From positions 1,636,998 through 1,700,997 of the forward strand of contig NW_011887296.1 in the NCBI RefSeq assembly GCF_000151315.2: a DNA stretch of 64,000 nt, read 5' to 3'. The position numbers and the translations under genes were made by a program. The DNA is from Capsaspora owczarzaki ATCC 30864. Lineage: Eukaryota; Opisthokonta; Filasterea. The notes beneath the pieces were generated by a model that worked only from the letters and a program-made list of their open reading frames with translations, was not told the origin of the DNA and searched no databases. This document shows positions 11,259-63,965 of the stretch, one piece after another (the first letter of the stretch is position 1; every line of letters begins with the position of its first letter).

Positions 11259-13090
11259 CTACCCTGAAGCTTTCCGTGCATTCGAAAAAGCAGGGCACTC
11301 AAACATTGCAAAAATTGGTCCAACGTATCCAAGATAAAGCGACTCGAATCCCACATCCTGTACAGACTTGCTGGGTCGAACTTGAACTTCCCAGCCCCCG
11401 CGCATTTGTCGGATGATTGGAGCAAGCGCTGGCCAGATTGTCAAGGACTCGAGAGTCGCATCGAGAAACGTCGGTTGAGCAGCAAATTCGCATCGAACAC
11501 TGCCTTGCTCATCTCGGACGATCAACTCGAACGCGCTGTCATCGCTGTCGCCGTCATGTGTCGCTTTGTCACGAAGCACATGAATTGATTTCACACAGAC
11601 CCAATTTCCGTCCAAGCTCCGAGGAACTGTGACTTTCAGAGCAACGTCGGGGGTGTCTGCTTGAAATCGCTCTCGTTTGGTACACTGCACGCCTTGCCAG
11701 TATTGCGCTTCGTCCATAATGTGCTCGGCAAGTTCGACCGGTAATACTGGTAGTGATGCGGATTGATCTTCCAGCGCCAGTCCGCTGGTCAGCAAGTGAA
11801 ACACAGTCTGAACGTCCTCAGCACTCGCTAACCGTGGGGTCAAGGAGAACACAAGAGGGCGTATCTGGTCGGAGATGCTGTGCAACGAACCATCACGATA
11901 AAAAAGCAGTCAGCAGGCCATTACTTCATCGAGTATTGGTTGGAATGGCACCAGTTGCACGAGTCGCAATGCCTTTGACAAGGACAAACTTACTAAACCT
12001 CACGACGGCAGCTGTCTTTGAGTGCCTCAACAATCGCTCGGGTGCCACTATTTCCAATGCAGTTTTGTGGTAGGCTGCCGCTCAACGGGGTGAGCAGGGA
12101 CGACAATGTGGTAAGGTCTGGTTGACCCCTGGCTCAATGTCCAAGCTGAACCACGCACAAAAACAACAGCTTACTTGAGCCAAGTCAGCGTCGTGTTGAC
12201 TTTGAGTGTTTCAGCAATCGCCTGTGCTCCAGCATCGCCAATGGCATTCTTGCCCAAACTGTCCGGATTCAGTGACGGCTCTCTGAATCCCCTCTGCTGA
12301 AAGCAACCCCCCCCCCTCACATGCATCTGGCAAAGAGAACTATGCCTTACTAGAGCATCGTCACTGTCGTGTTCACTTTGAGGGCCTCGGCAAGCGCCAG
12401 CACTCCCGCATAGCCAATATGACACAACCGTAAGCTGATTTGATCCGCTCCATCATAAATGAGCAATTTGACTGCCCTCTCCCACTCACTCGCGCTAGAC
12501 ACAAAGTGAAATCTCCTTACTCGAGCACATTCACCGTCGTGTTCACTTTGAGTGCCTCAGCAATGGCTTCTGCTCCGGCATCGCCAATCTGATTTCTATC
12601 CAAACTGACCATGCCCTTCATCAGGAAACACTCTTGTTGAATCACCCACGTACAGGTATTCGAATCGAAGTGAGACGCCTTACTATAGCGTCGTCAGCGT
12701 CGTGTTCACTTTGAGTGCTTCAGCAATCGACTGCGCTCCAGCGACGCCAATCTGGTTCTTGCCCAAGCTGTCCGTCCCTCGTTCAGTTAGCTCTCATAAT
12801 ACCTTCTACTTGATCACCCATTCACATGCTACAATCACAGTGAGACGCCTTACTCGAGCTCACTCATCGTCGTGTTCACTTTGAGTGCCTCTGCAATCGC
12901 TTCGGCTCCATCGTCGCCAATCTGCCGATCACCCAAACTGTCTTCCGCCACGTTTGTCAGCACATACATACATACTGGCATACATGTACTTTGCAATATT
13001 AAACTCGGCGTTTCCGTACAACAGTCCTTCGGCATCCATGGCTTTGTCAGACAGCTCGCGCTGTCGCTCAGTCATGCTCTCGTACAGCAT
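11259..13090 (-). CDS. Cytosolic LRR protein with one exon per repeat and a C-terminal F-box-like/beta-rich domain
   Basis: Eight exons are proposed: 13090-13020, 12937-12854, 12767-12684, 12604-12521, 12434-12351, 12258-12175, 12074-11994 and 11877-11259 (396 residues). Exon 1 encodes MLYESMTERQRELSDKA. Each of the next six exons encodes one 27-28-residue LRR of the ribonuclease-inhibitor/NLRC3 type (LGKNQIGxAGAxxIAEALKVN style), always in phase 2. The last exon encodes about 206 residues with LPVLPVELAEHIMDEAQYWQ, which resembles an F-box-like start, then a region rich in short hydrophobic beta-like strands ending KASG. No signal peptide, membrane segment, NACHT or kinase domain is visible. 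Exon 1 and the repeat exons are clearly homologous to those of the LRR-kinase gene at 61637-63965. The substrate and role are unknown. Confidence 0.75.
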
Positions 13091-43133: not shown

Positions 43134-46974
<3,841 letters not shown>

Positions 46975-60246: not shown

Positions 60247-61299
60247 ATGGCCAAGCATACGAGTCCGCGTGCTGCTGAATCTGAAGAAGGGAAGACGAAG
60301 AAGGCGGCGACGCCACGCGGTGATGGTGATGCTGGTGCCAGCGAGCAGACCAACGCCAAGCACAAGACCAAGCACGATGAGGAGCGACTGAGCCGCAAGC
60401 ACACGCGAGACAGCGATAGTGACAGCGACAGCGACAGTGAGGACGAGCGAGACGAGCGAGACGAGCGAGAAGGAGCAAAGCACAAGGCAAAGAAGGCGCG
60501 AACGGACGATCACGACGAGGACCATGCGTCATCATCGTCATCATCAGCCAAGGGCAAGAAGGGCAAGAAGGACAAGAAGGACAAGAAGGAGAAGAAGGAC
60601 AAGAAGGAGAAGAAGGACAAGAAGGACAAGAAGGACAAGAAGAAGGACAGGATCAAGGCGTCATCGACCGCTGCTCGCAAGGCAGATGGTGAATCGAGCA
60701 GCTCAGACAGTGATGCTGATGATGACAATGACAGTGATGATGCTGGCGATGATGAAGCCACCGCTGGTGCACAGGTCGAGGTTGCACGACACAAGCCGCA
60801 GCCGATGGACGTTGATTCGAGCGATGAAGCGTCATCGGACGACGAGCAGCCCAGCAAGCAACAGCAAAAGAAGGAAAAGAAGGACAAGAAGGACAAGAAG
60901 GACAAGAAGGACAAGAAGGACAAGAAGGAGAACAAGGACAAGAAGGAGAAAAAGGAGAAAAAGGACAAGAAGGACAAATCCGAGGCCAAGGCAGCAGCGC
61001 ACAGCGACAACAAGGCCGGTGCGTTGCGTGCGCCTGCTACGGCAAACCAGTGGGAAACCACAACCTTCTCAGGCGATGCCGGAGGCGCTCAAAAGGAAAA
61101 GTTTTTGCGTCTGATGGGTCTGGGAAAGCAGGCGGCAGCTACCGCAGCACACTCCAAGCCCGCCGCGGGCAGCGCGTCCACGTCCCAAGTCGCAGCATCA
61201 CAGCGAGCCATGAACGATCTCCAATCGCAGTACGAAAGCCTCCGCAAGTTTAATTCGCAAGCGCAGCAAAGCGGTGGCAAGTTTGGCTTCTCGCACTAG
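60247..61299 (+). CDS. KNOP1: Lysine-rich nucleolar protein with a C-terminal SMAP domain (KNOP1-like)
   Basis: The 350-residue product starts MAKHTSPRAAESEEGKTKKA. It alternates acidic Ser/Asp blocks with two long arrays of KKDKKDKKEKK units (about residues 100-136 and 207-245). The last 85 residues contain NQWETTTFSGDAGGAQKEKF then LRLMGLGK, and later DLQSQYESLRKFNSQAQQSG and GKFGFSH. That is the order of the small-acidic-protein-like domain found at the end of human KNOP1. Lys/Asp repeats of this kind target nucleoli. The gene is a single exon. An in-frame ATG at 60064 would add 61 residues, including Glu-Gln repeats; it is less likely because the extra part looks like leader DNA. Confidence 0.75.
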   Translation: MAKHTSPRAAESEEGKTKKAATPRGDGDAGASEQTNAKHKTKHDEERLSRKHTRDSDSDSDSDSEDERDERDEREGAKHKAKKARTDDHDEDHASSSSSSAKGKKGKKDKKDKKEKKDKKEKKDKKDKKDKKKDRIKASSTAARKADGESSSSDSDADDDNDSDDAGDDEATAGAQVEVARHKPQPMDVDSSDEASSDDEQPSKQQQKKEKKDKKDKKDKKDKKDKKENKDKKEKKEKKDKKDKSEAKAAAHSDNKAGALRAPATANQWETTTFSGDAGGAQKEKFLRLMGLGKQAAATAAHSKPAAGSASTSQVAASQRAMNDLQSQYESLRKFNSQAQQSGGKFGFSH

Positions 61300-61636: not shown

Positions 61637-63965
61637 ATGTCGTATGAGAGTATGAATCAGAAACAGCGCAAGCTGTATGATAAAGTCAAGAAGGCGAGTG
61701 GAGTGCTCAAGTAAGAAAAAGCCGAATCTATTGCAACAGTGCGATCGCGTGTGCTAACGAAGCGGAGGACAGTCTGCAGAAGAGCGAGGTTGGCGACGCT
61801 GAAGCGCAGGCGATTGCTGAAGCGCTCAAAGTGAACACGACGGTGTCGATGCTTTTGTAAGGCATCTCAGAACTACTGATGCATATGAGGGACTCACTGA
61901 TGGCGGGAATGGAGCAGTCTGCAAAACAACCAGATTGGCGATGCTGGAGCGCAGGCGATTGTGGAGTCACTCAAAGTGAACACGACGCTGACTGAGCTCG
62001 GGTAAGGCATCTCAGAGCTACTGATGCATTTAGAGTGCTCACTGATGGAGGAAATGGAGCAGTCTGCAAAACAACCAGATTGGCGATGCTGGAGCACAGG
62101 CGATTGCTGAGACACTCAAAGTGAACACGACGCTGGCTGAGCTCGCGTAAGGCATCTCAGAGCTACTGATGCATTTAGAGTGCTCACTGATGGAGGGAAT
62201 GGAGCAGTCTGGGTGGCAATCAGATAGGAGATGCTGGAGCGCAGGCGATGACTGAAGCACTCAAAGTGAACACGACGCTGACCGTGCTCTAGTAAGGCAT
62301 CTCAGAGCTACTGATGCATTTAGAGTGCTCACTGATGGAGGGAATGGAGCAGTCTGGATGTCAATCAGATCGGAGATGCTGGAGCACAGGCGATTGCTGA
62401 AGCGCTCAAAGTGAACGCGAAGGTGACTAAGCTCTAGTAGGTCATCTCACTTGTTTAAGTGGGTAATTCAGCAGAGGGTATGAAGAGAACTCACCGATGA
62501 AGGGGATGGGCAGTCTGTCGCACAATCAAATGACCGATGTGGGAGGACAGGCGATTGTTGGAGCGCTCAAAGTGAACAAGACGCTGACTAGCCTTGAGTA
62601 AATATTGATGGTTTTGAGATCTACTCTGAAGATCGTTCGACTCATACGACAATCTAACGACGTGACCAACAACAATAGGCTGAAAAAAAACTTTCTGACC
62701 AACACTGGAATCACTGCACTCAACGAAACAGGCAATACCGTTTGTAAATTGGAGTAAGACTCTGTGTGTTTATTGGACTCGCATGAAGCAAGTCCGAACA
62801 ACAATCCGTTCACTTTTTGGCGAAACTGGGGTTTCTATGAAGGAGCCTTGACAACCAGCGTGCACCATCGCCTGCCGACTTGGCTCAGATTGCAGCTCGT
62901 GCCGCTGCAAATCCGGCAACTGAGGTTCAGCAATTGCGCTCCAAACTGGCTGCCAAAGACCAGGAGCTAGCGGCCAACAAGCAGGAGCTCGCGACCAAAG
63001 ACCAGGAGCTGCAGCAACTTCGCTCCGATCTGAAGTCAGCTCTTGATCGAATTGACGTATTTGAGCGCAACGAACCCCCCGTTGGATCCTCATCGAACTT
63101 TGACGGACCAATCCCGCCAGTTTCTCTCGCAACTCTTGTCACCGCGACGAACAATTTTGCTGCCGATTCACTGATTGGCGAAGGAGCATTTGGTCGCGTG
63201 TACTCTGCCATTATGCCTGGCACTCGTGTTGCCATCAAAAAGCTGTCCGCCGAATCCAAGCAGGGCGCTGCCGAGTTCAAATCTGAACTGGACTCTTTGT
63301 CGAAATTCCGCCACGCAAACATTATTGCCATTCTGTCGTATGCTGAGCAAGGCGATGAGCGATGCCTGGTGTACGAGTTCATGCCAAACGGTTCTGTTCG
63401 CGATCGTCTCAGCCTCAAGAATGATAGGCCTCCGCTGACCTGGTCGCAACGCCACCGCATTGCTGCCGATGTCTCCCGCGGCATGCACTATGTCCAAACC
63501 GCGTTCCCTGATCATGTTCTGTTCCACCTCGACCTCAAGACGGACAATGTTCTGCTAGACGCATACCTTAATGCGAAAGTGTCTGATTTTGGCTTGGTTC
63601 GTGCTGCCCAACACCTCGATGAAAAGAGCTACCTTCGCACGCAGACTGTTCAAGGTACCGCTGTTTACATGTGTCCCGAGTTCCTATTGGAGGGCAGAAT
63701 GACCACCAAGACAGACGTCTACCCATTCGGCATGATTCTGCTCGAGTTGGTGACCGCCGCCAAGCCTGGTCCCAGACTGAAAACAGACATGCGCAAAGCA
63801 GTGAAAAACCAAAAATCCATCGAGATGCTGGACTCGGCCTTGAAACCAACCGAAGCCGAGCGCCAGAGCATCAGCGAGGTTGTCACTCTCGCACTCGAGT
63901 GTCTTGAGGACGATGCTGACGATCGCCCATCCTTTGGTCGCCTCATTGCTTCGTTGGATGCTTGA
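61637..63965 (+). CDS. LRR / coiled-coil / Pelle-RLK-like protein kinase
   Basis: Nine exons sum to 590 residues: 61637-61710, 61773-61856, 61918-62001, 62063-62146, 62208-62291, 62353-62436, 62514-62597, 62679-62753 and 62846-63965. Exon 1 encodes MSYESMNQKQRKLYDKVKKA. Exons 2-7 are exactly 84 bases in phase 2 and each encodes one LRR (LQNNQIGDAGAQAIAEALKV type); exon 8 is a degenerate repeat. The last exon encodes a short coiled coil (AAKDQELAANKQELATKDQE) and a kinase domain. The kinase has LVTATNNFAADSLIGEGAFG then RVYSA, VAIKKL, LVYEFMPNGSVRDRL, HLDLKTDNVLLD, VSDFGLVRA and GTAVYMCPEFLLEGRMTTKT. This is the plant RLK/Pelle/IRAK (TKL) style, probably Ser/Thr-specific. HLD replaces HRD, so it is a non-RD kinase. 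No signal peptide or membrane segment is visible. Confidence 0.85.
61857..62352 (+). repeat. Tandem 145-base units (61-base intron plus 84-base LRR exon)
   Basis: Introns at 61857-61917, 62002-62062, 62147-62207 and 62292-62352 are all 61 bases. The last two are identical, the second differs from them at one base, and the first is more diverged. The exons between them differ more (about 6, 18 and 13 changes in 84, counted by eye between successive exons 3-4, 4-5 and 5-6). Confidence 0.9.

Follow-up and report, generated by a model that had tools for sequence, protein, structure and literature searches.

A Capsaspora family of leucine-rich repeat genes, some with IRAK/Pelle-type kinases, combines hypervariable strand codons with signs of exchange between repeat arrays

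The variable lymphocyte receptors of lampreys contain leucine-rich repeat (LRR) modules with variable exposed residues and are assembled somatically from a germline gene that is incomplete. Among the NWD genes of Podospora, which include het-d and het-e, WD repeats are exchanged both within and between genes and evolve in concert, exactly four codons per repeat are positively selected on the binding face, and pseudogenes still have homogenised repeats (available sections of PMC1805685). These ten genes combine WD40 beta-propellers with NACHT, and allorecognition by them has been shown genetically (PMC1805685). The LRRs of brown-algal ROCO proteins have positively selected sites 14, 16, 18 and 19 on their concave side (Teng 2024, available sections of PMC11378527), and the genes form a large family with one LRR per exon and phase-2 introns (Zambounis 2012, as reported in PMC11378527). 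ROCO exons are 72 nt long with 23-aa repeats, the repeats are accompanied by a ROC-COR GTPase, and alternative splicing is reported (PMC11378527). In primates, the introns of the red and green opsin genes have been homogenised by gene conversion, while the selected exon 5 stays divergent, in a system of two genes and two key residues (available sections of PMC3924837). Zebrafish NLR-B30.2 genes are a large immune-type family with each LRR on a single exon, in which gene conversion differs between gene parts and NACHT is present; variation is found in B30.2, the LRRs being "not particularly variable" in the account given there (available sections of PMC4852459).

We analysed a 64,000-nt stretch of the genome of Capsaspora owczarzaki (the window), near the end of which nine predicted exons join into one 590-aa frame with a single terminal stop (Table 1). 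The predicted protein begins with a short N-terminus, followed by six LRRs and a putative degenerate capping repeat; a linker rich in heptads then leads to the protein kinase. Its LRRs are of the ribonuclease-inhibitor/NLR type with 28-residue repeats (PF13516, LRR_6, 113.8 bits against a cut-off of 23.4, in four stretches), and solved relatives of this part include ribonuclease inhibitor and NLRs; a PF13516 search of the genome returned zero matches, and equally zero for the controls, which makes it uninformative. The closest solved relatives of the kinase are BRI1 (9e-53) and IRAK4 (4e-48; phmmer), with Pto-type kinases and FERONIA also found, and with PF07714 above its cut-off we assign it as a putative kinase of the IRAK/Pelle/receptor-like (TKL) type. 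The motif FHLDLKTDN, with HLD replacing HRD, was present in all 14 of the kinase exons extracted; a non-RD catalytic loop is typical of many immune kinases. The 19-residue hydropathy mean revealed neither a membrane span nor a leader over the whole 590-aa prediction (maximum 1.06), and the protein is predicted to be intracellular. Two scanned pieces of the window gene matched kinase and LRR families only, with no NACHT/NB-ARC and no ROC-COR GTPase in either.

Table 1 Layout of the LRR-kinase gene in the window.
Feature	Position in window	Strand	Basis
Predicted first coding exon (ATG), without hydrophobic leader	61637..61710	+	Spliced reading frame
LRR exon 1, 84 nt, phase-2 introns	61773..61856	+	Profile scan, AG/GT bounds
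First intron of the array, 61 nt, 8-9 bases off the next three	61857..61917	+	
LRR exon 2, 84 nt	61918..62001	+	Profile scan, AG/GT bounds
Intron A, 61 nt	62002..62062	+	1/61 vs intron B
LRR exon 3, 84 nt	62063..62146	+	6/84 vs exon 2
Intron B, 61 nt	62147..62207	+	No difference from intron C or from intron 3 of the paralogue L010
LRR exon 4, 84 nt, with an apparently mosaic makeup from L010 exons 3 and 4	62208..62291	+	18/84 vs exon 3
Intron C, 61 nt	62292..62352	+	Identical to intron B
LRR exon 5, 84 nt	62353..62436	+	13/84 vs exon 4
77-nt intron of another type, common to L010	62437..62513	+	
LRR exon 6, 84 nt	62514..62597	+	Profile scan, AG/GT bounds
75-nt exon, degenerate capping repeat (putative cap)	62679..62753	+	In frame, AG/GT bounds
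KDQEL-type heptad linker, then protein kinase domain	62846..63965	+	PF07714 6.5e-46

The Capsaspora family thus described shares features with each of these systems and departs from each. Where ROCO genes have 72-nt exons and a GTPase, it has 84-nt exons and repeats of the ribonuclease-inhibitor type, and its kinase, where one was detected, is of the IRAK/Pelle type. Compared with the Podospora NWD genes it has LRRs with introns, and it is known from sequence alone. The variable part is the predicted LRR concave face rather than a B30.2 domain as in zebrafish, with no NACHT seen in the window gene, and in place of the two opsin genes there is a genome-wide repeat pool. Unlike those of the lamprey receptors, the LRR genes are complete in germline sequence.

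Positions 61770-62449 are called as a 145-nt tandem array by Tandem Repeats Finder. Elsewhere in the window, two adjoining exact 65-nt tandem duplications with different units lie at 46186-46468, and KDK-type lysine-rich 9-nt repeats lie at 60550-60977 in the gene upstream. The initial annotation, which numbered our LRR exons 2-5 as 3-6, had described the repeat unit as an 84-nt exon plus a 61-nt intron; the coordinates agree with ours, but intron identity covers three introns and not the whole array, the first intron being 8-9 of 61 bases off the other three and the last being of a different type and length. The near-identity of introns beside diverged exons that it had pointed out was confirmed (introns A/B 1/61 and B/C 0/61; exons 6, 18 and 13 of 84). 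We found that the divergence extends to synonymous sites of the framework, which differed at 6 of 19 sites between exons 3 and 4 (against 0/61 intron bases; Fisher 9e-5) and at 4 of 18 between exons 4 and 5 (against 0/61; Fisher 0.002), whereas exons 2/3 compared with introns A/B gave no significant contrast (2/19 vs 1/61, p = 0.14). Selection on amino acids alone makes no synonymous differences, so intron and exons have had separate recent histories, and the identical introns beside synonymously diverged exons (6/19 vs 0/61) reflect local recombination.

The closest paralogue, L010, lies 85 kb from the window gene in inverted orientation. Introns A-C and L010 intron 3 are essentially one sequence (A/B 1/61), and an exact 111-nt tract common to both loci starts midway in exon 4, spans intron C and ends in exon 5, holding a full set of the four strand positions discussed below. 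Window exon 4 differs from L010 exons 3 and 4 at 4 and 5 positions, with matches that appear block-wise by eye. We propose that a recent exchange in the window array may have given three introns the same sequence without making the flanking exons alike, either through conversion of the intron alone or through tracts that spread while old exons were retained by selection. The opsin genes are a published example of such an arrangement, with converted introns adjoining an exon that is protected (PMC3924837). Among 572 same-array intron pairs compared (those more than 25 nt apart in length being left out), 5 were less than 2% different, three of them in the window array, one in L010 and one in L032; the window introns are a tail case that was picked by eye in the initial annotation. 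The L010 kinase (C5:1611986-1613008, minus strand) has 5 in-frame TGA codons in the part that was matched and 84 gap columns relative to the window kinase, and the L010 LRR exons are open. L010 looks like a pseudogene with repeats still homogenised, a likeness to the fungal NWD pseudogenes (PMC1805685).

Both published Capsaspora GAPDH qPCR primers have exact matches in the genome examined, pointing towards one another at a distance of 532 bases on contig C1, and T-box genes occur in it; a 90-nt coYki arm and a coYki primer gave no match. A DNA search of the organism's own genome with the array returned at least 127 matches, which were grouped into 40 loci. The parsed set, from 30 of the 40 loci plus the window, comprised 44 arrays, in which 223 introns and 267 exons were counted, every exon being exactly 84 nt long and bounded by AG and GT; exons without both AG and GT (10/179 in one parse) and one-exon arrays were left out. 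One repeat corresponds to one 84-nt exon with phase-2 introns, the codon being split after its second base, and an in-frame stop occurred in none of the 267 exons. At least 17 of the 40 loci have a same-strand kinase match no more than 3.5 kb downstream, as judged from the first 52 of 119 kinase matches. The array is a member of a large LRR gene family, predicted to be intracellular, some members of which carry a putative IRAK/Pelle-type kinase. A second family array in the window (12175-12937, minus strand) has five 84-nt exons and no adjoining kinase among the matches listed. Just past the window end, following the kinase gene on the same strand, are at least 12 further LRR exons (L009:5589-7497, C5). 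Two inverted loci 25 kb apart, L029 and L030 (C13:479700-481600 and C13:454500-456550), are identical over 1297 nt, probably as a result of recent duplication or conversion.

Variation along the repeat was strongly uneven. Across 247 distinct exons, codons 2, 3 and 26 reached amino-acid entropies of 3.60, 3.63 and 3.85 bits, and nucleotide entropy was high at both free bases of codon 28, which is split by the intron; the remaining 24 codons had amino-acid entropies of at most 2.24 bits. Variable places run 26, 28, 30, 31 in the pattern x-L-x-L-x-x, with 30 and 31 corresponding to codons 2 and 3 in the exon that follows, and their spacing equals that of the brown-algal sites 14, 16, 18 and 19 (PMC11378527). 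The four codons match the predicted exposed x positions of the LxxLxLxxN strand and are near saturation. Distinct four-residue combinations occurred in 232 of 249 exons (copies L016 and L030 left out). Based on Nei-Gojobori counts of synonymous and nonsynonymous changes, mean differences were 0.190 in introns, 0.352 for framework pS, 0.146 for framework pN and 0.636 for hypervariable pN, and the orderings of these quantities were kept in 300 of 300 bootstraps over arrays.

The same pattern was found in a syntenic duplicate, L034/L035 (10 exons), where hypervariable nonsynonymous differences (8/95) had 13-fold the odds of intron differences (4/591; Fisher 3e-5) and also exceeded framework synonymous ones (1/181; p = 0.001), in a comparison that drew its choice of four codons from data that include this pair. 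Framework nonsynonymous differences numbered 9/539, framework synonymous sites and introns did not differ from each other (p = 1.0), and 17 of the 18 exon changes were nonsynonymous, which departs from neutrality alone at no more than borderline significance (p = 0.051). Strong diversifying selection on a recognition surface, one of the explanations raised in the initial annotation, is supported by the concentration of variation in four exposed beta-strand codons and by the L034/L035 excess.

We also assessed divergence between different parts of the genes and between arrays. Among 11 genes compared in 55 pairs, fourfold differences were 0.196 in the LRR framework and 0.338 in the kinase, with the LRR value being lower in 52 of the 55. 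Once the recent copies L016 and L030 were left out, as they were from the site-association and codon-coupling analyses below, framework distance between internal units was the same within an array as to other arrays (0.198 vs 0.195, p = 0.81). Intron distance showed a weak tendency (0.265 in the same array vs 0.272 in others, p = 0.08), hypervariable codons were slightly closer in the same array (0.603 vs 0.625, p = 0.006), and introns with equal index, counted from the start of their arrays, were slightly closer than others (0.262 vs 0.274, p = 0.015). This slight likeness within arrays and at the same index indicates that exchange is not complete. Association between sites dropped with distance over the repeat unit (p = 0.001; p = 0.002 without pairs less than 12 nt apart); such a decay was not seen within exons alone (p = 0.63 for pairs at least 12 nt apart, p = 0.72 for framework only) and was not significant within introns alone (p = 0.13). 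L015 and L016 were identical over six exons, with identity ending inside exon 7, and L029 and L030 over seven exons. Along the alignment of the window and L010 kinases, mismatches were unevenly spread, with 11 in columns 1-700 and 50 in the 300 columns that follow (p = 0.0005). Patchy kinases, shared tracts and the contrast between LRR and kinase divergence are signs of gene conversion or unequal exchange.

Concerted evolution combined with diversifying selection on a recognition surface is the best explanation for these patterns, and we regard it as highly probable. Positive diversifying selection for new binding surfaces would drive the four codons and keep the exon differences, and gene conversion or unequal crossing over would go on homogenising whatever selection leaves unprotected. 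With units exchanged between arrays across the genome, scaffold and introns evolve in concert.

Introns could also look young after neutral tandem duplication if they were under functional constraint, as splicing or regulatory sequence. The pairwise-aligned intron distance of 0.19, below the framework pS of 0.352, would on its own suggest such constraint, and the family as a whole has a recognisable intron consensus of 76 nt. However, pairwise gapping lowers intron distance, and in the column-wise figures, which we trust more, intron heterozygosity (0.273, or 0.294 without splice sites) was close to that of fourfold framework sites (0.303). Introns and synonymous sites were also alike in L034/L035 (4/591 and 1/181), and constraint on introns leaves the near-saturated hypervariable codons unexplained, which together make this account improbable. 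Intron-specific conservation was dropped as a general claim because column-wise heterozygosity removed most of the gap, and introns diverge as fourfold sites do, in a roughly neutral manner. The proposal that exons diverge while introns stay identical accordingly applies to window introns A-C and not to the family, in which introns behave much like synonymous sites, such that the reversal noticed at the outset stems from the hypervariable codons. Targeted mutation of those codons, whether germline or somatic, had been suggested as another source of exon divergence. It would fit the high variability of codons 2, 3 and 26 at all three nucleotide positions, but there were 0 substitutions, hypervariable codons included, across the 13 exons of the two recent identical copies (six in L015/L016 and seven in L029/L030), and two exons of L021 share the same hypervariable codons, leaving this mechanism with hardly any probability.

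A further possibility is that whole exons were shuffled as cassettes, via their introns, from a donor pool, and that this was the main source of the exon differences in the window. Single exons do recur unchanged in arrays on separate contigs (L012 exon 6 and L025 exon 7; L029 exon 7 and L038 exon 4), and the arrays are fed from a shared pool. Yet the parsed exons (30/40 loci plus the window) included no intact donor from elsewhere for window exons 2-5, the nearest exon outside L010 and the window array being 11-14 of 84 positions away. Several of the exact tracts common to two arrays have both ends within the conserved central part of exons; such a tract stops at the first mismatch and marks no proven breakpoint, and the list of 54 tracts holds artefacts from neighbouring arrays with shared flanks. 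Coupling of hypervariable codons was not lower across an intron than within an exon, either in raw counts (15/277 vs 11/277 pairs) or when L035 and L010 were left out (10/249 vs 7/249). Whole-exon shuffling as the main source is thus unlikely, though somewhat less so than intron constraint. Gene conversion between paralogues, as the initial annotation had envisaged it, is supported with regard to exchange between arrays, while the idea of exon cassettes bounded by introns is not favoured by the mid-exon tract ends and the coupling across introns. Lamprey-like assembly, the logic of which the initial annotation had brought up while stating that no such mechanism was shown, is unsupported. It is conceivable, but very improbable, that a freely recombining genome-wide pool of LRR modules connected to IRAK-type kinases is rearranged in clonal lineages, perhaps under programmed control, fast enough to serve as a renewable recognition repertoire.

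Concerted evolution under diversifying selection is an evolutionary mode already known from fungal NWD and brown-algal ROCO genes; its occurrence in this host lineage and the kinase as partner seem to be new. A limited literature search, which did not extend to the original genome paper, returned no published description of a Capsaspora LRR family, and nothing usable was found on 84-nt LRR exons or on venom-gene precedents. Given the predicted intracellular location, the variability of the exposed face and the IRAK/Pelle-type kinase, the proteins most likely act as recognition receptors, and with less certainty we suggest that they may recognise pathogen, prey, symbiont or kin and signal through the kinase. 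If this is true, a single-celled organism closely related to animals possesses a diversified repertoire of LRRs linked to IRAK/Pelle-like kinases, and uses the same four variable surface positions as brown algae in an unrelated gene family. A pre-animal origin of LRR-kinase recognition would then become testable, and gene disruption has been published for Capsaspora (available sections of PMC9170242). The family is also a large natural data set on the interplay of conversion and selection inside repeat arrays.
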